A model generated the notes under the pieces. That model made no database searches. It saw only the letters and a list, made by a program, of their open reading frames with translations, and had not been told where the DNA came from. The position numbers and the translations under genes were made by a program. Positions 35,909 through 45,215 of a DNA stretch of 64,000 nucleotides are shown here, one piece after another. Within the stretch, counting starts at the first letter, position 1. Each line of letters starts with the position of its first letter. The stretch comes from Acidisarcina polymorpha (lineage in GTDB: Bacteria; Acidobacteriota; Terriglobia; Terriglobales; Acidobacteriaceae): positions 5,084,001-5,148,000 of the forward strand of contig NZ_CP030840.1 in the NCBI RefSeq assembly GCF_003330725.1, given 5' to 3'.

Positions 35909-37189
35909 GTGATGGGCGGCGGCCTCGCAGGGATGACCGCCGCCATTCATCTCGCCGCTGCGGGACTTCGGGTTTTATGCGTCGAGCCGGATTCCCTCAA
36001 TAGAGATCCAGTTGGCGAGTCATTAGACTGGTCAGATCCCGATTTGCTGAAGACCCTTGGGCTGCAAATTGACTATCTCATTGAGCAAGGAATCGCTACT
36101 TTCAAACGCCACGCCGTTCTGAAGCTGAGAGACGGGTCCGAACGGCACTATATTCCGAGGGAATGGCTCGGGAAGCCTCCGTATAATGTCGACCTTCGGA
36201 CACTCCATGTCGATCGTGGCGAGCTGAACCAGGCACTTCGTCAGATATTTCACAGCAAGGGGATTCGGTTGGCGAATGACCGGGTCGTACATGTCGAGAC
36301 TGCTGGCAGAATGGTCAAAGCCGTTGTCACTGGCGAAGGCGAACGGATCGCCTCTCGATGGTTTATCGATGCATCTGGATCCGGTTCAACCCTGCTTCCC
36401 CGTATATTCGAGCTACCCGTCTATGAATATGGCCCGCACAAGGTGGCCATATGGGACTATTTCACTGTGCCTGAATCTATAGAGGGAACAACTTTGCACG
36501 CGGACGGTGCAGGCCCCTTGTATATGGAATGGGTTTGGCAGATACCAATTCATCCCAACACCATCAGTGTCGGCTACGTGGCGCCAGGGGACGCAATTAA
36601 AGAGAAGCGGCAACAAGAGCTCAGTGTTCAGCAGATCTTTGAGGCAAAACTCAAACACTTGCCAGCCTTGCATGGATTGCTGTACGGCCCGTTGAAGGAG
36701 CCGCCGCGCACGACATCCTTTCGTTGCCGCGCTTTCGCCAAGACCGCTGGCCCCAACTGGCTCGTCGCCGGCGAAGCCGCAGCCATGGTAGATCCAATGA
36801 CCTCGAACGGGGTGACGGCCGCTTTGAGACACGCCGCAGAGGCATCGAGGCTGATTATTCGATATAAGGACCGCAAAGCAATTCCGCGCCCGATGGCGGC
36901 AATGTACAGTCAGCGGATCGTGAGCCTTGCAAAATTCTTTAACAGCTCTATTGAGAATATCCTCTACGATGCACCGGTCAGAAATCGTATTGGTCCATTC
37001 AATGCCGGCGATTTGTATACGATTCCTGCGTGGAGCATTAACGTGGTCTACTCCCGCTTGCGCCCCCAGGGATTCATAAAAACATCTCTATTTTGTCTAT
37101 TACTCGCAACGCTCAGATTTTCCCTCGGCGCCTTCCACTGGTTATGTAGCCGATTGCAGCCTTCCCTGCCAACAAGAGCTACGGCTTGA
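35909..37189 (+). CDS. FAD-dependent oxidoreductase, halogenase/geranylgeranyl-reductase-like
   Basis: 426 residues. The FAD fold begins VMGGGLAGMTAAIHLAAAGL, followed by a LRVLCVEPDS second strand and a conserved WFIDASGSGSTLLPR. The GD-type motif reads WLVAGEAAAMVDPMTSNGVT (Pro/Thr-rich FAD-phosphate loop). The layout resembles flavin-dependent tryptophan-halogenase and geranylgeranyl-reductase-like monooxygenases. The C-terminus has one hydrophobic segment. The GTG at 35909 leaves the first beta-strand (DVTVMGGG) without its start. Just upstream lie ATG codons (35877, 35890) that would encode a normal N-terminus after a one-base indel near 35898. So the gene may be frameshifted at its beginning, or the base call may be wrong. 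Confidence 0.75.
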   Translation: MMGGGLAGMTAAIHLAAAGLRVLCVEPDSLNRDPVGESLDWSDPDLLKTLGLQIDYLIEQGIATFKRHAVLKLRDGSERHYIPREWLGKPPYNVDLRTLHVDRGELNQALRQIFHSKGIRLANDRVVHVETAGRMVKAVVTGEGERIASRWFIDASGSGSTLLPRIFELPVYEYGPHKVAIWDYFTVPESIEGTTLHADGAGPLYMEWVWQIPIHPNTISVGYVAPGDAIKEKRQQELSVQQIFEAKLKHLPALHGLLYGPLKEPPRTTSFRCRAFAKTAGPNWLVAGEAAAMVDPMTSNGVTAALRHAAEASRLIIRYKDRKAIPRPMAAMYSQRIVSLAKFFNSSIENILYDAPVRNRIGPFNAGDLYTIPAWSINVVYSRLRPQGFIKTSLFCLLLATLRFSLGAFHWLCSRLQPSLPTRATA

Positions 37190-37314: not shown

Positions 37315-38049
37315 TCAGTTTGTTCCTAAGTTTTTCTGAAGTGCCGCTGCCAAATCCGGCGGATGAAATCCGAATGGCCCCGGCTTACTCTTGTATAGAA
37401 CATGACCGTCAGTCCCAATCAGGTAAAGCCGGTCAGGCCAGCCGGTGTATGCAGTCTCAACCTGATTATCGAAGCCGTCGATTACTGCGGGAAACTTGAT
37501 GCCGAGTTTTCGCACGCAGGTTCCCGCGACTGAGGCGCGTTCAGCCTCGTCCTTCGGGCTGGCGAAGAGCACCTTATCGCGGACATTGCTTTGCATCTCC
37601 CAGACATCCGTGGGATGGGCCTCTAGAATGTAGACCGCGTAAAAATCCGCCTTGCCTTTGTACTGCTCCGACAGCTTGTTCAGGGCGGGAACCTCCCGCC
37701 GAAAGGGCGGTCAAGTATAGCTCCCGAAAACCAGCACCACAGGTCGTTCCGCCCATAGGGAACCGAGTTCTATTGGGGATTTGTCTTCAAGCTTCTTGAC
37801 GGTCAGACTCGGCGCAATATCGCCGGCCTGGATGGTCCCTCTGCGCGCATGCGTCCACATTGTCTCGAAGGGGAAGAGAAAATAGGCGGGCATCGGCATC
37901 CTGGCCATGACATGCCCGAAGACCTCTGGCGGCTGCCGCATCGCCCGATAGATGTAACCGACAAAGCCGACCCATAGGGCGAAGAGTATTGCCGCGGCTC
38001 CGCCTAGACGTCGTTTTGTCCTGTCGCTCAACCTGATCTTCATCTTCAT
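37315..38049 (-). CDS. Selenocysteine-containing iodothyronine-deiodinase-like membrane protein (UGA = Sec113)
   Basis: Read through the in-frame TGA at 37713-37711, this is a 244-residue protein. One membrane anchor lies at about residues 15-34. A thioredoxin-like domain follows with GSYTUPPF (Sec at 113), YILEAHPTDVW (EAH at 143-145) and TGWPDRLYLIGTDGHV near 202. It ends KPGPFGFHPPDL. These blocks match vertebrate iodothyronine deiodinases (GSxTUPPF, EAHxxDGW, PERLYVI, KGKPGPWNYNPEE). That family removes iodine from thyronines using Sec. In bacteria the substrate is unknown, and dehalogenation or peroxide/thiol chemistry is possible. The ATG lies 10 bases after the AhpD-like stop, so the two are co-transcribed and probably coupled. 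Two frames split by one UGA, in phase and with a SECIS-like hairpin, argue against a pseudogene. Confidence 0.93.
37684..37700 (-). promoter_or_regulatory. Bacterial SECIS hairpin for the deiodinase-like gene
   Basis: In the mRNA the UGA (37713-37711) is followed after ten bases by GGCGGGA-GGU-UCCCGCC: a perfect 7-bp stem with a GGU loop. The loop starts 18 bases after the UGA, within the distance usual for bacterial SECIS elements. Its G/U loop is like the SelB-contacting loop of E. coli fdhF. SelB, whose gene lies just upstream, should bind it. Confidence 0.85.
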
Positions 38050-38059
38050 CGTATCGGGC

Positions 38060-38641
38060 TTAATCCGTCAGTTTGTTCATTTCAAGATAGTTCTGTGGTG
38101 GAATCCCAAAAGCATCGGCGACCCGGTTGAAAAATGCGAAGAGCGCGGTTATGTAAACCGCCTCGGCAATTTGAGGGTCGGTCCAACCGTTATCGCGTAG
38201 CAGCTGAACATCCTCCGCGGTGGTTTTGTAGGCGGCTTCCGTCACCTTGCCTGCGTACTCCAGGAGAGCACGCTCCGCGTCGCTTAGCTCCGCTTCTTCG
38301 AGCTTGCCCGCTGCCAACGCCTGCACCGTCTTCTCATCCGCTCCCTGAACCCGCAGGAAGTATGCATGTGAGTCCAGTCAATATGGGCAGTGATTAAGCC
38401 TGGAGACCCAGCTCGCGATGGCTTCCTTCATCCGGCGCGTCAGATGGCCCTCGGAAAAGTGCACGGTGTTGCTGAAGCTCATGACCTCGCGCAGGAAATC
38501 CGGGCGATGGCTAAAACATTTGAGAATGCCGGAGACGTTCTGTCGACCCGAGCGGGCGCGCCATTCGTCATAGACCTTGGCGATTTCGCCGGTGGCGTCC
38601 GCATCTTCAATCAGTTCGATCTTTGTTTTGGAGTCTGCCAT
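38060..38641 (-). CDS. Selenocysteine-containing AhpD-like (carboxymuconolactone decarboxylase family) protein, CxxU (UGA = Sec88)
   Basis: Read through the in-frame TGA at 38380-38378, this is a 193-residue protein. The AhpD/CMD core has RMKEAIASWVSRLNHCPYU followed by LDSHAYFLRVQG. Cys85-Pro-Tyr-Sec88 and His92 replace the family's catalytic CxxC…H (usually CxYCxxxH). The C-terminal half carries a repeat of the CMD helices (ERALLEYAGKVTEAAYKTT, ITALFAFFNRVADAFGIP). AhpD-like proteins are thiol peroxidase reductases with a CxxC redox pair, so Sec should give a selenol-thiol pair of higher reactivity. The ATG at 38641 has a GAGGA site. It lies 51 bases after selB and 10 bases before the deiodinase-like gene. 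Confidence 0.93.
38342..38359 (-). promoter_or_regulatory. Bacterial SECIS hairpin for the AhpD-like gene
   Basis: In the mRNA, 18 bases after the UGA, UUCCUG-CGGGUU-CAGGGA forms a 6-bp stem (one G-U pair) with a six-base loop. The loop starts at base 25 after the UGA, in the accepted range. It contains GGU, as does the second SECIS in this operon. Confidence 0.75.
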
Positions 38642-38692: not shown

Positions 38693-40594
38693 TCAGAGCA
38701 CCAGACGCCGGTCGCCCTCCTTGCGGGTCACTCTTTCGCGGTCGAGATATTCCAGGAGAGGGATAGCATATTTCCTCGACAGTCCGGTGATCTGCTTGAA
38801 GCGTGCGACATCGATGGTCTGGCCGCGAAATCCCTTGAACTGCGCCCGCAATTCGTCAAGTGCCTGGCGATGGATGTAGACCGGATCGGTTCCCATCCTG
38901 ACCATTGTTTTGTCGCGCAAGAGCATTGTCATGGATCGGCGCATCTGGTCGTCTGTGATTCCGAGGACTGTTGCGACTTCGTTGGTCGATGGCGAAGCGA
39001 GGCCGGCATTCTTGTAGATTCCCTCTATCTTAGATTGAATCGGATCGTCCTCTCCGGATGGTTGAGGGGCCGCTCCGCGAGAAAAGACCATTTCGCCTTG
39101 CCTGCAAAGCTTCTGCTCGGCAAACAAGCCTTCAACCAGATATTCGAATACTTCCCCGCTCAAACCGATCTGACTCTTCAGTTCAGAAAGCTTGATACCT
39201 TTCTGGTTGGATTTCATCTCCAGTCGAAGCAGGACAGCTTCGGCGGCGGCTTCCACGGCGTCTTTCGTCAAAAAGAGGTCGCCAGCAAAGCGGCCGAGAT
39301 TGTTGCGGCTGACGAGAATATTGAGATGCCGAATCATAGCTTCTGGGGTGAGGCCAGTTTCGCGAACCAACTCCCGCAAAGAGACGCCCCGAGTTTTGCG
39401 TCGGCCAATGCGGAGCTTCACTTGTTCTTCGAGACTCGCATTCCCCATCGATTCGAGCCACGCGAGGCACTCGGCCTTCTTGAGTTTCTCGATCGGCTGC
39501 GCGTCGAGCACACGCCCGCCGCCGATGGTTGCCGCAGGCGACAGCTGCCGGAGTACAAATCGGTCTCCAGGCAGAAGTAGCACCGGATCATTAAGCTTCA
39601 ACCGCACGATTCGCTTCGCGCCCGGTTCGACAGAGTTGTAGCCATAAAGCGAAACCGAGGCAAGCGTCTCGGTGGTGAAGGCGTGGAAATGGAGCCGCTC
39701 GCGATGCTTCAGTGCGGCGACGCCGGGCAGCAGCATGACCTCCGCGTCGATGGTCGATGTGGCCGTTAGCATCTCCGGCTCGACGAACGTTTGTCCCCGA
39801 CTTATCTTGGATACTTCAATGCCGGTAAGGTTCAAAGCAACCCGCGAACCGGCGGAGACGCGCGCCTCGGAATGGCCATGCGTCTGTAGTCCCCTTACTC
39901 GTACCGTGCGACCGCCGGGTTCCAGAGCGAGCGATTCACCAGCGAAGACTGTTCCTGAGAGCAGCGTGCCAGTGACAACCGTGCCAAATCCCTTCATCAT
40001 GAAAGCCCGGTCGATTGGCAGCCTCGACACATGGTCGGGTTGACGGACTTTCGTGTCCACCGCCAGGGCGCGCAGTTCATGGCGCAACTCCGCCAAGCCT
40101 TCGCCATTCTTTGCGCTCACAGGCAAAATTCTGGACTCGCTTGCATCGAGAAACGTTCCGCGGAGAAACGCTCTTACTGCGGTTAGAACCTGATCTAGGC
40201 GCTCAGGACTAACAGCATCGACCTTGCTGATCGTAGTGATTCCACGACGCACTCCGAGAAGTCCGCAGATTGCGAGATGCTCCCGGGTCTGCGGCTTGAC
40301 GCCTTCGTTGGCCGCGATGACAAGCAGGACGGCATCCACGCCGCCCGCGCCAGCCAGCATGTTTCGGATGAAGAGCGCGTGACCGGGAACGTCAACGAAA
40401 CTGATGCGGAGAGGCGTTCCGTCGGGCGCCGTCTCGTCGAGAGAGGCAAAGCCGAGATCGATGGTGATGCCTCGGCGCTTTTCCTCAGGCAGCCGGTCGG
40501 CGTCGACTCCGGTAAGCGCGTGTATCAAGGCTGTCTTTCCGTGATCGATGTGGCCGGCGGTACCAATAACAATGGATTTGAGCGGTGGGGTCAT
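38693..40594 (-). CDS. selB: Selenocysteine-specific elongation factor SelB
   Basis: About 633 residues. The GTPase has GTAGHIDHGKTALIHALTGV, switch I RLPEEKRRGITIDLGFASL and DVPGHALFIRNMLAGAGGVD. After it come the EF-Tu-like domains 2-3, the SelB-specific domain IV, and four winged-helix motifs near the C-terminus that bind SECIS RNA. SelB carries Sec-tRNA to UGA codons that are followed by a SECIS hairpin. I prefer ATG 40594 (MTPPLKSIVIGTAGH); a TTG at 40630 would overlap the selA stop (TTGA). The order selD-selA-selB on one strand, with tight spacing, indicates one operon that continues into the two selenoprotein genes. Confidence 0.95.
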   Translation of the reverse strand: MTPPLKSIVIGTAGHIDHGKTALIHALTGVDADRLPEEKRRGITIDLGFASLDETAPDGTPLRISFVDVPGHALFIRNMLAGAGGVDAVLLVIAANEGVKPQTREHLAICGLLGVRRGITTISKVDAVSPERLDQVLTAVRAFLRGTFLDASESRILPVSAKNGEGLAELRHELRALAVDTKVRQPDHVSRLPIDRAFMMKGFGTVVTGTLLSGTVFAGESLALEPGGRTVRVRGLQTHGHSEARVSAGSRVALNLTGIEVSKISRGQTFVEPEMLTATSTIDAEVMLLPGVAALKHRERLHFHAFTTETLASVSLYGYNSVEPGAKRIVRLKLNDPVLLLPGDRFVLRQLSPAATIGGGRVLDAQPIEKLKKAECLAWLESMGNASLEEQVKLRIGRRKTRGVSLRELVRETGLTPEAMIRHLNILVSRNNLGRFAGDLFLTKDAVEAAAEAVLLRLEMKSNQKGIKLSELKSQIGLSGEVFEYLVEGLFAEQKLCRQGEMVFSRGAAPQPSGEDDPIQSKIEGIYKNAGLASPSTNEVATVLGITDDQMRRSMTMLLRDKTMVRMGTDPVYIHRQALDELRAQFKGFRGQTIDVARFKQITGLSRKYAIPLLEYLDRERVTRKEGDRRLVL

Positions 40595-40626
40595 GGCGGG
40601 AGTTTCGTGCGGGCTCAGGTGGCCGC

Positions 40627-42150
40627 TCAACTGGCGCCAGGCTCACGAGCGCCAACGCTGCTGCGTGCGGCCTGCGTCAGGAGACTTGGCAGAGATGAAT
40701 CGAACTCCGGCTCCACGGTTCGAAGGTCGAGAAGCAGGCGCTCCTCGCTGATCCGGGCAATGATGGGAGGGTTTAGTTGCCGCAATGCAAATAGGAGTGA
40801 CTGCGGTTGTACCGCCGCATGCCGCAGTGCGATCGCCCAACTATCGAGGCGCGCTGATGGCGCCGTACCACCGCCAATCAAGCTGAGCGCGGGAACCACC
40901 TCCGCGGAAAGTTCGGCGGAAGTGATCTGATTTACAAGTCGCTTGCATCTCTCAGCCAGTTCGGCAGGCGGAATGTGAAGCAATCTCATGATTGGAATTG
41001 CATTTTGTCGCCCCAGTAAGTAGTCCATCAGTGTTGCTTCAAGGGCAGCGTACGTCAGCTTATCAACCCGAAACGCCCGGAAGAGCGGGTTTTTGCGAAT
41101 ACGCTCGATAAGATCAGCCCTGCCGATGAGCAACCCACACTGAGGGCCACCGAGCAGCTTGTCCCCGCTGGCGGCCATGAGGTCAGAGCCCAGGCTATAG
41201 CTTCCGGTTAATGTTGGCTCGGCGCGAATGCCCAGTTCATCCAAAGGCATGACAAGCCCCGTGCCCTGGTCATCGAAGAAAGGCACACCGTGACTCTTGC
41301 AGAGGGAAATCAGATCGGACAGTGCGGGTCGTTCCGTGAACCCTTCCATGCTGAAGTTCGATTGGTGAACGCGGAGAACCAAGCCAGTCTCGGGTGTGAT
41401 GGCGTTCTCGTAGTCGGCGAGCCGGGTTCTGTTGGTTGTGCCAACTTCACGGAGGCGGGCCCCGGACTTCGCGAGGATTTCAGGAATTCGAAAGCCGCCA
41501 CCGATCTCGACAAGTTCGCCGCGTGAAATGATTACTTCAGCGTCTTCGGCGATCGAGTGCAGTGCGAGAAAGGTTGCGGCGGCACAATTGTTCACCACGA
41601 TCGCCCGTCGCGAAGGGGTATCTTCCTGCGTGCCACTCTTAAGGTTGAGCAGACGCAGCAAAAGGCTTTCTGCATGAACATCGCGGCGACTACGCTCTCC
41701 GCTCTCCAGGTCGAGCTCAAGATTGGAGTAGCCCTTTGCGACCTCAGCTATGTGATCGATTGCGGCCTGGCTCAAAGGAGAACGCCCAAGGTTGGTATGG
41801 AGGACGACGCCCGTCGCATTGATCACTCGTCTCAGGGAATAGCTCGCGTTCTGAATAAGCTCGGCGGCGATATCGCTGTCCAAAGAGTCAAGCCGGTGAG
41901 TCAAGCTGGCATGCGTGTACTTACCTGCTGTGACCTGCTCTTTCATACGACGGAGCACGGCCCTGGCCGCTTGCACAACAGCATCGTGGGAGTGGGACTG
42001 CAGCATCGCCGCAAACGGCTGGGTCAGGAGCAGATCGCCGATCGAAGGCAGCAGTCTGTATAAGCTGTTCGTTTCGTTACCGTTCGTCGCCTGCTCCAAA
42101 GTCTTCATCGCCTCACCCGAGCAGGTCTGATTGTATTGCTTCGTTTGCAT
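40627..42150 (-). CDS. selA: L-seryl-tRNA(Sec) selenium transferase
   Basis: 507 residues, PLP-dependent. It converts Ser-tRNA(Sec) to Sec-tRNA(Sec) using selenophosphate and works as a ring-shaped decamer. Visible features are the N-terminal tRNA-binding helices (YRLLPSIGDLLLTQPFAAML), AVVQAARAVLRRMKEQ, and GVVLHTNLGRSPLSQAAI. The PLP lysine lies in LMAASGDKLLGGPQCGLLIG. The start at 42150 lies two bases after the selD stop; an internal ATG at 42108 has a GGTGAGG box and is also plausible. The length fits bacterial SelA. It overlaps or closely abuts selB. Confidence 0.95.
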   Translation of the reverse strand: MQTKQYNQTCSGEAMKTLEQATNGNETNSLYRLLPSIGDLLLTQPFAAMLQSHSHDAVVQAARAVLRRMKEQVTAGKYTHASLTHRLDSLDSDIAAELIQNASYSLRRVINATGVVLHTNLGRSPLSQAAIDHIAEVAKGYSNLELDLESGERSRRDVHAESLLLRLLNLKSGTQEDTPSRRAIVVNNCAAATFLALHSIAEDAEVIISRGELVEIGGGFRIPEILAKSGARLREVGTTNRTRLADYENAITPETGLVLRVHQSNFSMEGFTERPALSDLISLCKSHGVPFFDDQGTGLVMPLDELGIRAEPTLTGSYSLGSDLMAASGDKLLGGPQCGLLIGRADLIERIRKNPLFRAFRVDKLTYAALEATLMDYLLGRQNAIPIMRLLHIPPAELAERCKRLVNQITSAELSAEVVPALSLIGGGTAPSARLDSWAIALRHAAVQPQSLLFALRQLNPPIIARISEERLLLDLRTVEPEFDSSLPSLLTQAARSSVGAREPGAS

Positions 42151-42152
42151 GG

Positions 42153-43217
42153 CTATCTCAGGACAATCGCCGGTTTTCCCCGCCCAGCCACATAATGGCC
42201 AAGCACCGTGCCAATCCTTGCGGGGTTTAAGTCTGCCTCGCGCAGAGCGTGTAACAGCAAGTCTGCGCTTTCCGATGCAACCGAGATCAGCAGACCGCCA
42301 GCCGTCTGCGGGTCATACAACAAGCTGCGCAGATCATCAGAAATCGCCGCGCCCTCGTGATCTGCGCTCTCACACTCGGCGAACTCGCGGTTCGCCAACA
42401 GTCCGGCGGGGATTGCCCCTAGAGCGATGGCGTCGAGCGCGCCGTTGATACGTGGAACCTTATCTGCTTCGATTTCAATCGTCACACCGCTGCCGAGCGC
42501 CAACTCGCGTCCATGGCCCATCAGACCAAATCCAGTCACATCGGTCATCGCATGAACGCCGGGCGTCTTCGCCGCAGTCTCAGACGCCGCTCGATTGAGC
42601 GTCGTCATCGATCGAACTGCCTCCGAAACCCAGGACTCCTCCGCGATGCCTCGCTTCAATGCGGTCGTAATCACGCCAGTTCCAATGGGCTTAGTGAGAA
42701 CGAGTGTATCGCCCGAAATCGCACCGGTGTTGGTGAACACTCGCGCGGGGTCAATCAGACCGCTGACTGCATAGCCAAATTTGATCTCCGCATCGCGAAC
42801 GCTGTGGCCGCCGACGACGACACAGCCGGCTTCGTCCATCTTAGTGAGACCGCCGCGCATGATCTGCTCAAGCACATCGAGGCCGCCATCCTGAGGGAAG
42901 CACACAATGGAAAGCGCCGTTACCGGACGGCCTCCCATGGCGTAGATGTCGCTTAGAGCATTGGTTGCCGCGATCTGCCCGAAGGTGAATGGATTATCGA
43001 CAAGTGGGGTAAAGAAATCCACGGTCTGAACAAGCGCCAGGTCGGGCGCTATGCGGTAAATGCCGGCGTCATCCGACGTTTCGAAACCGACAAGCAAGTT
43101 TGGGTCGACTTGTTTTGGAAGCCTCGACAGCACGGCCGCAAGCGACCCGGGCGCAAGCTTGCTCGCGCACCCCCCGGCCTTCACCTGCTGCGTCAATCTC
43201 ACCGTCGCTGTATCCAA
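42153..43217 (-). CDS. selD: Selenide, water dikinase (selenophosphate synthetase)
   Basis: 354 residues. The enzyme makes selenophosphate from selenide and ATP and supplies SelA. The essential residues are in VKAGGCASKLAPG: Cys17 (Sec in some homologues, here Cys) and Lys20. Then FETSDDAGIYRI, TVDFFTPLVDNPFTFGQIAA, NALSDIYAMGGRPVTAL and VVVGGHSVRDAEIKFGYAV carry the ATP/Mg Asp and His residues. MTDVTGFGLMGHGRELA and LYDPQTAGGLL end the catalytic core. The first gene of the operon, it starts 58 bases from the divergent tRNA-Sec gene. Their promoters must lie in that gap. Confidence 0.96.
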   Translation of the reverse strand: MDTATVRLTQQVKAGGCASKLAPGSLAAVLSRLPKQVDPNLLVGFETSDDAGIYRIAPDLALVQTVDFFTPLVDNPFTFGQIAATNALSDIYAMGGRPVTALSIVCFPQDGGLDVLEQIMRGGLTKMDEAGCVVVGGHSVRDAEIKFGYAVSGLIDPARVFTNTGAISGDTLVLTKPIGTGVITTALKRGIAEESWVSEAVRSMTTLNRAASETAAKTPGVHAMTDVTGFGLMGHGRELALGSGVTIEIEADKVPRINGALDAIALGAIPAGLLANREFAECESADHEGAAISDDLRSLLYDPQTAGGLLISVASESADLLLHALREADLNPARIGTVLGHYVAGRGKPAIVLR

Positions 43218-43275: not shown

Positions 43276-43370
43276 GGAAGCGCTTAGGCTCCGGTGGTCC
43301 TCCCGGTCTTCAAAACCGGTGGTCGTTCTTAACGGGCGACGGTGTGTTCGACTCACACGCGCTTCCGCCA
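43276..43370 (+). tRNA. selC: tRNA-Sec (anticodon UCA), CCA encoded
   Basis: 95 bases. The acceptor stem is 8 bp (GGAAGCGC with GCGCTTCC) and the T stem 5 bp (GTGTG/CACAC, loop TTCGACT), the 13-bp acceptor-T helix unique to bacterial tRNA-Sec. The anticodon stem is CCGGT/ACCGG with loop CTTCAAA, anticodon TCA at 43310-43312. A long variable arm follows and the 3' end is G-CCA. It reads UGA. It lies divergent to selD and 446 bases before an IS481-type element. Confidence 0.96.
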
Positions 43371-44054: not shown

Positions 44055-45215
44055 TTAGGGACGAAGCGCCGGTAGAAACCGCATTTCGTTGACATCGAAC
44101 GCACCAACTTCCAAAGAGCAGAAGTAGACTCGATAGAAGGCGTCCTGGACTTTTTCGAGTGCTATATCCTGGCCGCGAAAGACTTGGCTGATGAATACCC
44201 GGCCCTTATGCCAGCTAATATCTCCTGAGTCGTTGACACGCCGCGTCTGGAAGTGAGCAGGATACTGATATGCCTTCGTGTACCGTGGCAGAAGCCGCGA
44301 GCTGGGCACATAGATGTTGCCGGGTGTTTCGTTCCCCAAGGCTTCGTGCGGACGCTCATGGTTATAGACCCGGCGAAACTCATCGAACCGTTTTTGCTGT
44401 GCCTGGAGCGTCTTCGCGGACGGGTTCGTTGTGTCCTGCTTGAGTGTGCGATGCATCCGTTCGTGTCGACCGTTCTGCTGCGGTTTACCCGGCTGAATGC
44501 GTTCATGCACGATCCCGAGGCGCACCCAGTTAAGTGACAACTGGGACAGTCCCAGCAAGGCATGTCCAGAGAATGGGCATCCGTTGTCCGTACGAATCCT
44601 GTCAGGAACACCATACTCGCGCATCGCTGCCTCGCAGATCGCGAGTACATGCGCCGTATCCATCCGGGTTATGGCCTGACAGCGGATCAGATAGCGACTG
44701 TAGGCATCTGTAATGGTGAACGGATCGCATCGGTGCCCATCTCCTGTGCGGAACCAGCCCTTGAAGTCCATGCACCATAGCTGGTTCGGTGCGGTGACCT
44801 CAGCGAAGGGTTCTGAGTATGGAGTGGTTCTGCGTCTCTTGCGAACAGGGTTCGTGAGTCCGGCCCGGCGAAGAATCTGGCCAATGGTGCTAGCTGCTGG
44901 CCATACAACGTTCGGGTTCATCTTCTCCAAACGCGCCTTCAACTTCCGCGCTCCCCAGGAAGGAAAACGCTTCCGAAGAGCAAGTATCTCGTTTTCGATC
45001 TCCATAGAGGTTGCATGAGAACAACCGTGGGGTCTGCGCGAAATATCCAGCAAGCCTTCCGGGCCAACTTCGTTATATCGCTTGATCCACTTATAGGCGG
45101 TTGGGCGTGAGATGCCGTACTCATGGCACAAGTCCGTCACAGACATCTCTGCCTTCTGATAACTCGATAAGAACTGCAAGCGTTGATCCACAATACGACT
45201 CTCTCTCCAAGGCAT
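44055..45215 (-). CDS. IS481-family transposase
   Basis: 386 residues. The N-terminal helix-turn-helix is VTDLCHEYGISRPTAYKWIK, followed by LKARLEKMNPNVVWPAASTI. The rve catalytic core has Asp in LWCMDFKGWFRTGDG, Asp in RIRTDNGCPFSG and Glu in KPQQNGRHERMHRTLKQDT, with the typical YNHERPHEALGNETP. The C-terminal part binds the ends. It appears intact. Length and motif order match IS481. It occupies nearly the whole element and is read away from the tRNA-Sec region's strand. Confidence 0.93.
   Translation of the reverse strand: MPWRESRIVDQRLQFLSSYQKAEMSVTDLCHEYGISRPTAYKWIKRYNEVGPEGLLDISRRPHGCSHATSMEIENEILALRKRFPSWGARKLKARLEKMNPNVVWPAASTIGQILRRAGLTNPVRKRRRTTPYSEPFAEVTAPNQLWCMDFKGWFRTGDGHRCDPFTITDAYSRYLIRCQAITRMDTAHVLAICEAAMREYGVPDRIRTDNGCPFSGHALLGLSQLSLNWVRLGIVHERIQPGKPQQNGRHERMHRTLKQDTTNPSAKTLQAQQKRFDEFRRVYNHERPHEALGNETPGNIYVPSSRLLPRYTKAYQYPAHFQTRRVNDSGDISWHKGRVFISQVFRGQDIALEKVQDAFYRVYFCSLEVGAFDVNEMRFLPALRP

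Follow-up and report, generated by a model that had tools for sequence, protein, structure and literature searches.

A predicted AhpD-like selenoprotein gene in Acidisarcina polymorpha is paired with a deiodinase-like selenoprotein gene behind selDAB

We analyzed a 64,000-nucleotide stretch of Acidisarcina polymorpha DNA (NCBI RefSeq assembly GCF_003330725.1, contig NZ_CP030840.1, positions 5,084,001 to 5,148,000; hereafter the window), focusing on a gene for an AhpD-like protein whose CPYU active site is interrupted by an in-frame UGA codon. The gene belongs to a compact block with the order selD-selA-selB-ahpD-dio, all on the same strand, in which dio codes for a second putative selenoprotein of the deiodinase-like (DIO) type. 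From sequence and structural models we propose, with moderate confidence, that the AhpD-like gene, part of a selenium block, encodes a selenol-thiol oxidoreductase of the all-helical AhpD fold that works in the cytosol, most likely in peroxide defense. The new part is the conserved AhpD-DIO pairing, as both protein families are already known. Coordinates are collected in Table 1.

Read on the minus strand with TGA as selenocysteine (Sec, U), the AhpD-like gene is a single frame of 193 amino acids with a lone internal UGA in the context NHCPYULDSH, and GAGG, a ribosome-binding-type sequence, lies directly 5' of its ATG. The protein scored 113.5 bits against the peroxidase-related model TIGR01926, above the curated cut-off of 81.8, and 56.7 bits against PF02627 (CMD; cut-off 23). 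It fell under the curated cut-offs of TIGR00777, which describes AhpD proper (21.6 bits; cut-off 191.95), and of the selenoprotein model NF041238, AhpD_rel_CFYUT (63.1 bits; cut-off 175). The structure closest to its AlphaFold model (predicted local distance difference test score, pLDDT, 90.8) was D. radiodurans DR1765 (6k40), with a Z of 22.3 and 2.5 Å over 182 residues. Peroxidase-related structures as a group (6k40, 2pfx, 2prr, 3c1l and 2oyo) gave Z values of 21.6-22.3, compared with 17.7 and 17.5 over 174 residues for the debrominase Bmp8 (6ohj and 6ohi) and 11.7 for M. tuberculosis AhpD. No transmembrane helix or signal was predicted. The family scores, together with the comparative evidence for Sec given below, confirm the in-frame UGA in the CPYU of an AhpD-like protein that had been reported from the letters alone, with no strand given.

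To the pseudogene or assembly-error explanation, in which the UGA is a true stop, we assign a nearly negligible probability. Its sole point in favor is the standard genetic code, in which UGA means stop. We collected related loci from acidobacteria and planctomycetes and found UGA at the equivalent codon of 45 distinct AhpD-like genes from these two phyla, nearly all without a further internal stop. TGT or TGC occupied the position in eight more distant homologues (38-54% identity). Pseudogene-like evolution of the UGA and its flanking frames, which the original prediction had named as its refutation, was looked for and not seen: the median ratio of nonsynonymous to synonymous substitution rates (dN/dS) was 0.21 before the UGA and 0.23 after it, values that are rough because many pairs are near synonymous saturation and that indicate purifying selection on both sides. 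With a selenocysteine insertion sequence (SECIS), synonymous constraint and adjoining Sec machinery also against it, the pseudogene reading is refuted at the sequence level.

A hairpin located 20-35 nucleotides past the UGA, with base pairs 3-7 of its stem formed and a G among the two bases that open the loop, was present in all 45 UGA-containing AhpD-like genes and in none of the eight Cys homologues. Conservation of the dominant codon peaked at the hairpin (0.78 versus 0.55 elsewhere in the AhpD-like genes, p = 0.002). Z-scores from synonymous shuffling were biased, as the codon pool was taken from the same genes, and we therefore relied on the contrast between Sec and Cys genes and on the profile of conservation at synonymous sites. 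Taken together, we conclude from the comparative evidence that UGA 88 is decoded as Sec by the adjacent SelA, SelB, SelD and tRNA-Sec, guided by a putative downstream SECIS. In an 89%-complete genome (G007), a Sec-AhpD gene with its UGA (L049:8071-8631) was found with no tRNA-Sec above the cut-off, reflecting either missing sequence or decay.

Residues E73, C85, Y87, U88 and H92 were all invariant in the family alignment, in which Sec was written as C. M. tuberculosis AhpD (TIGR00777; 1knc/1gu9) has the same proton-relay residues and spacing, with Sec88 at the position of its Cys133, although it belongs to a different subfamily and no ahpC neighbors the gene in the window. In that enzyme, the relay deprotonates Cys133. 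The M. tuberculosis relay consists of Glu118/Cys130/His132/Cys133/His137 (PMC3141380), and the spacing of E73/C85/Y87/U88/H92 equals it; the exposed Cys133 contacts and cross-links AhpC, and Cys130 is partly buried (PMC6626918). Because of this match, Sec88 likely holds the attacking position with Cys85 as the resolving residue, and the original prediction, which had put Sec at the resolving position, is not borne out. In the mechanism we propose, Glu73 and His92 would deprotonate Sec88 with the help of Tyr87 and a water molecule, and the selenolate would attack peroxide or another small electrophile. Cys85 would then resolve the product as a selenenylsulfide, and a dithiol donor of the lipoyl or thioredoxin type would regenerate the enzyme.

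By analogy with DR1765, the closest homologue that has been studied, the protein most likely serves in peroxide defense: the DR1765 mutant is sensitive to H2O2, and complementation needs the CxxC cysteines (PMC8945050). DR1765 shares fold, length and the CxxC-x3-H site with the AhpD-like protein, but it is a Cys/Cys protein without Sec and only about 30% identical. Several points weigh against our proposal. Peroxidase activity is weak in proteins of the AhpD type, and peroxide as the substrate is guessed from homologues with 27-30% identity. The AhpD fold also hosts the debrominase Bmp8 (Z 17.7). In B. thailandensis AhpD the first cysteine is more important than the second (PMC6626918), and for this reason the attacking and resolving assignment is likely rather than certain. 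Finally, the minimum free energy of the SECIS as a single sequence was unexceptional relative to shuffles, its support being comparative.

The partner gene resembles the bacterial deiodinase-like selenoproteins and the animal iodothyronine deiodinases in PF00837 membership, an N-terminal transmembrane helix and TUPPF. It differs from them in its predicted periplasmic location, in a Pro at the position of Dio2 His182, and in scoring below the NF038285 cut-off. The protein gave 104.7 bits against PF00837 (gathering cut-off 27) and 182.2 bits against NF038285, deiodinase_rel (cut-off 250), where the match covered no more than the C-terminal half of the model's 347 positions, and mouse Dio2 and Dio3 headed the fold search. 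Sec113, Glu143, His145 and Trp150 were conserved, and equivalents of Dio2 Ser127, Thr129, Sec130, Tyr157, Glu160, His162, Trp167 and Arg226 (residues from PMC11592359) were retained; the Pro at the His182 position was invariant in DIO-like proteins. A SECIS hairpin was found in 31 of 31 UGA-containing DIO genes, with compensatory changes in one (L109), and in none of 22 Cys DIO genes. The mean net charge was +3.7 before the transmembrane helix versus +0.6 after it, a strong positive-inside bias, in 26 of 30 proteins. Since the helix is single and N-terminal, this bias predicts an N-in/C-out protein with a periplasmic catalytic domain. In planctomycetes, the DIO proteins are fused to EF-hands and start with signal-peptide-like N-termini.

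A flavin adenine dinucleotide (FAD)-dependent gene (window 35909-37189, plus strand) is convergent with the DIO gene. It scored 63 bits against Trp_halogenase and 105 bits as QhpG-like, under the cut-off of 240, and carries WVWQIP, a halogenase-type motif (WxWxIP). A 76% paralogue lies at G000:C1:2859329, next to a Cys CMD gene. The FAD-dependent gene was near dio in 4 of 18 close loci, and was therefore excluded from the core evidence.

As predicted, the AhpD-like gene and the Sec deiodinase homologue share one gene block, on the same strand and 10 base pairs (bp) apart. We asked how the pair is arranged in the close clade (clade A), defined as 18 acidobacterial loci (L001 and L022-L038). The two genes were adjacent on the same strand in 16 of the 18, with gaps of 9-89 bp, and selB was directly upstream in 14. 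Three pairs (L024, L025 and L038) lacked selB upstream within the locus DNA examined. In one genome DIO is directly behind selB and AhpD is elsewhere (L028/L117), and in another (L022) sel-AhpD is present and DIO was not found in the genome. The eight Sec-AhpD genes of the sister group (clade B, L010-L017) were unlinked to DIO and to sel genes; an amino-acid permease stood alongside in several of these loci, with no pointer to DIO. Without AhpD, Sec-DIO is found widely among acidobacteria, and 25 of 120 acidobacterial relatives had DIO without Sec-AhpD. Outside the close clade and the two planctomycete genomes described below, most AhpD and DIO genes were unlinked. We used the AhpD tree loosely because its bootstrap support is unsettled, L071 is a mislabelled duplicate of L025 (which has DIO), and L105 is a stray distant row.

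Among 248 planctomycete genomes, 24 had this type of AhpD, 104 had DIO and 15 had both. The two genes were adjacent in 2 of these 15, G120 with Cys in both proteins and G238 with a Sec AhpD and a Cys DIO, and both pairs stand away from sel genes. The linkage is probably no accident, because chance adjacency among several thousand genes would be far below the observed rate, and it may stem from one ancestral event. In G238 the pair belongs to a cluster that also encodes a ferredoxin-like protein, FG-GAP/UnbV_ASPIC proteins and an RnfD-like membrane protein; this cluster recurs in G157, where AhpD is present and DIO is missing. At L116:7114-19000 and L118:3-8271, a cluster of this kind comprises a ferredoxin-like protein, an HxGPPFP protein, two FG-GAP/UnbV_ASPIC proteins, an RnfD-like protein, DIO in some cases, and AhpD in its Sec or Cys form, with an alginate-export porin also present in L116. 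It looks like an uncharacterised redox system. Two further observations concern planctomycetes. In another planctomycete, a Cys DIO domain is followed after about 380 bp by a distant AhpD-like frame (L105:2400-2834) that shows 36% identity and reads CHYU across an in-frame TGA, and three Sec-AhpD genes (L086, L093 and L094) adjoin 5-oxoprolinase-like genes that we judged by eye to be of the PxpA/PxpB type.

The original prediction suggested that the two selenoenzymes share a pathway, with AhpD reducing the oxidized deiodinase-like enzyme as an example. A shared pathway is plausible, because 16 of the 18 close acidobacterial loci keep the pair and it recurs in planctomycetes; the example is unsupported, as the predicted compartments differ. 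We consider it very improbable that the AhpD-like protein is a dedicated reductant of the deiodinase-like enzyme. Such a role would suit adjacent same-strand genes with a 10-bp gap kept together in nearly all close loci, even where selB is not upstream, and also linked in two planctomycetes, one of which has Cys in each protein; M. tuberculosis AhpD also reduces a thioredoxin-fold peroxidase, AhpC (PMC6626918). However, DIO is predicted to be N-in/C-out, with secreted-type N-termini in planctomycetes, and AhpD to be soluble and cytosolic, so direct reduction is probably not what the pairing reflects. Also against a dedicated reductant, the eight clade B genes and most planctomycete ones have no linked DIO, DIO occurs without Sec-AhpD in the 25 relatives noted above, the two genes are separated in the L028 genome, and no DIO was found in the L022 genome, which has sel-AhpD.

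A more serious contender, to which we give a substantial but less than even chance, is a selenium island, in which the two genes were co-inherited and are co-expressed because both need the Sec machinery, with no common pathway. Most clade A pairs lie directly behind selB, and either partner can be lost or moved singly (L022; L028/L117). Clusters of selenoprotein and sel genes with fdhA were described by Zhang 2006 (PMC1794560), and co-occurrence of AhpD and DIO in the family's Sec-positive genomes exceeded expectation only modestly (8/9 versus 14/34, Fisher p = 0.02, uncorrected for ancestry). Yet L024, L025 and L038 keep the pair with no selB upstream, and the planctomycete linkage is away from sel genes; because both G120 proteins have Cys, Sec machinery cannot explain that pair. 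We conclude that the pairing most likely reflects co-expression, and possibly a shared response in two compartments, rather than direct electron transfer.

An unlikely alternative is that the proteins are two mechanistically convergent reductive dehalogenases, a Bmp8-like enzyme in the cytosol and a deiodinase-like one in the periplasm, with soil organohalogens as substrates. The tetrabromopyrrole debrominase Bmp8, a thiol-based reductive dehalogenase, has the AhpD fold in common with our protein, cysteine oxidation to a disulfide has been proposed for its reductive debromination (PMC5577590), the deiodinase active-site residues (PMC11592359) are largely intact in the DIO-like protein, and the FAD-dependent gene with its halogenase-type motif is convergent with dio. 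However, the Bmp8 match (Z 17.7) is weaker than that to the TIGR01926 peroxidases (Z 22), and Bmp8 is 17% identical, has Cys only and comes from a biosynthetic context. From the alignment offset, its Cys82 appears to align with Cys85 and not with Sec88. In addition, the Dio2 His182 position is an invariant Pro, and the FAD-dependent gene is not co-directional and is missing from most loci. That selDAB-ahpD-dio would be a two-compartment selenol system, in which soil acidobacteria combine a Bmp8-like dehalogenase in the cytosol with a deiodinase-fold one in the periplasm to act on natural organohalogens, seems to us a little more doubtful still, and dehalogenation is weaker than the peroxide reading.

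Descriptions of both AhpD-like CxxU and deiodinase-like selenoproteins date from 2005 (PMC1088965), and a list from 2026 again includes them, with TIGR01926 and PF00837 (PMC13188914). Sec-AhpD-like proteins, which had been taken to be known from a few bacteria, are in fact common, with 299 + 70 sequences from Global Ocean Sampling (GOS; PMC2398784). The Sargasso Sea and GOS proteins (COG2128/TIGR01926) match ours in model, CxxU and bacterial SECIS (PMC1088965, PMC2398784, PMC13188914); unlike them, the lineage here is mostly terrestrial and acidobacterial, with a fixed selDAB-ahpD-dio order. Three known selenoproteins were found by deep-Sep in a relative, Occallatibacter riparius (PMC12013277); L033 comes from O. 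savannae, a member of its genus. Among the openly accessible papers searched, none described the selDAB-ahpD-dio block or an AhpD-DIO pair that recurs.

Table 1. Positions of the selenium-block features within the window
Feature	Position	Strand	Remarks
Deiodinase-like selenoprotein gene	37315..38049	minus	244 aa, PF00837, N-terminal transmembrane helix, TUPPF site; starts 10 bp past AhpD stop codon
Predicted SECIS of deiodinase-like gene	37684..37700	minus	GGCGGGA-GGU-UCCCGCC; 11-27 nt past UGA
In-frame UGA, codon 113 of deiodinase-like gene	37711..37713	minus	context SYTUPPF
AhpD-like selenoprotein gene	38060..38641	minus	193 aa, TIGR01926/COG2128 group, CPYU active site
Predicted bacterial SECIS of AhpD-like gene	38341..38360	minus	18-37 nt past UGA; loop CGGGUU, G in first two bases
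In-frame UGA, codon 88 of AhpD-like gene	38378..38380	minus	equivalent to M. tuberculosis AhpD Cys133
selB, Sec-specific elongation factor	38693..40630	minus	listed TTG start; ATG 12 codons inward likelier
selA, selenocysteine synthase	40627..42150	minus	
selD, selenophosphate synthetase, Cys form	42153..43217	minus	
selC, tRNA-Sec, divergent from selD	43276..43370	plus	Rfam RF01852, 72.4 bits

Some observations concern the sel genes themselves. The same genome has a second tRNA-Sec gene (L115:9232-9326; G000:C1:401231-401321), identical to the window copy at 89 of 95 positions and scoring 62.5 bits, around which no sel genes were recognized. An IS481-like integrase/transposase (window 44055-45215, minus strand) lies directly past the tRNA-Sec gene, bordering the sel block, and may bear on the mobility of the block. 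As for FdhA as a client of the Sec machinery, no formate dehydrogenase of the TIGR01553 type, the only type searched for, was found in the genome at E 1e-50.

The AhpD-DIO pairing gives the bacterial deiodinase-like protein a conserved, recurring genetic partner, including one Cys/Cys pair, which narrows the search for its function and could be put to the test in acidobacteria that are in culture, for example Occallatibacter. For the AhpD-fold enzymes, these genes are a clean collection of naturally occurring Sec/Cys replacements at the likely attacking position.
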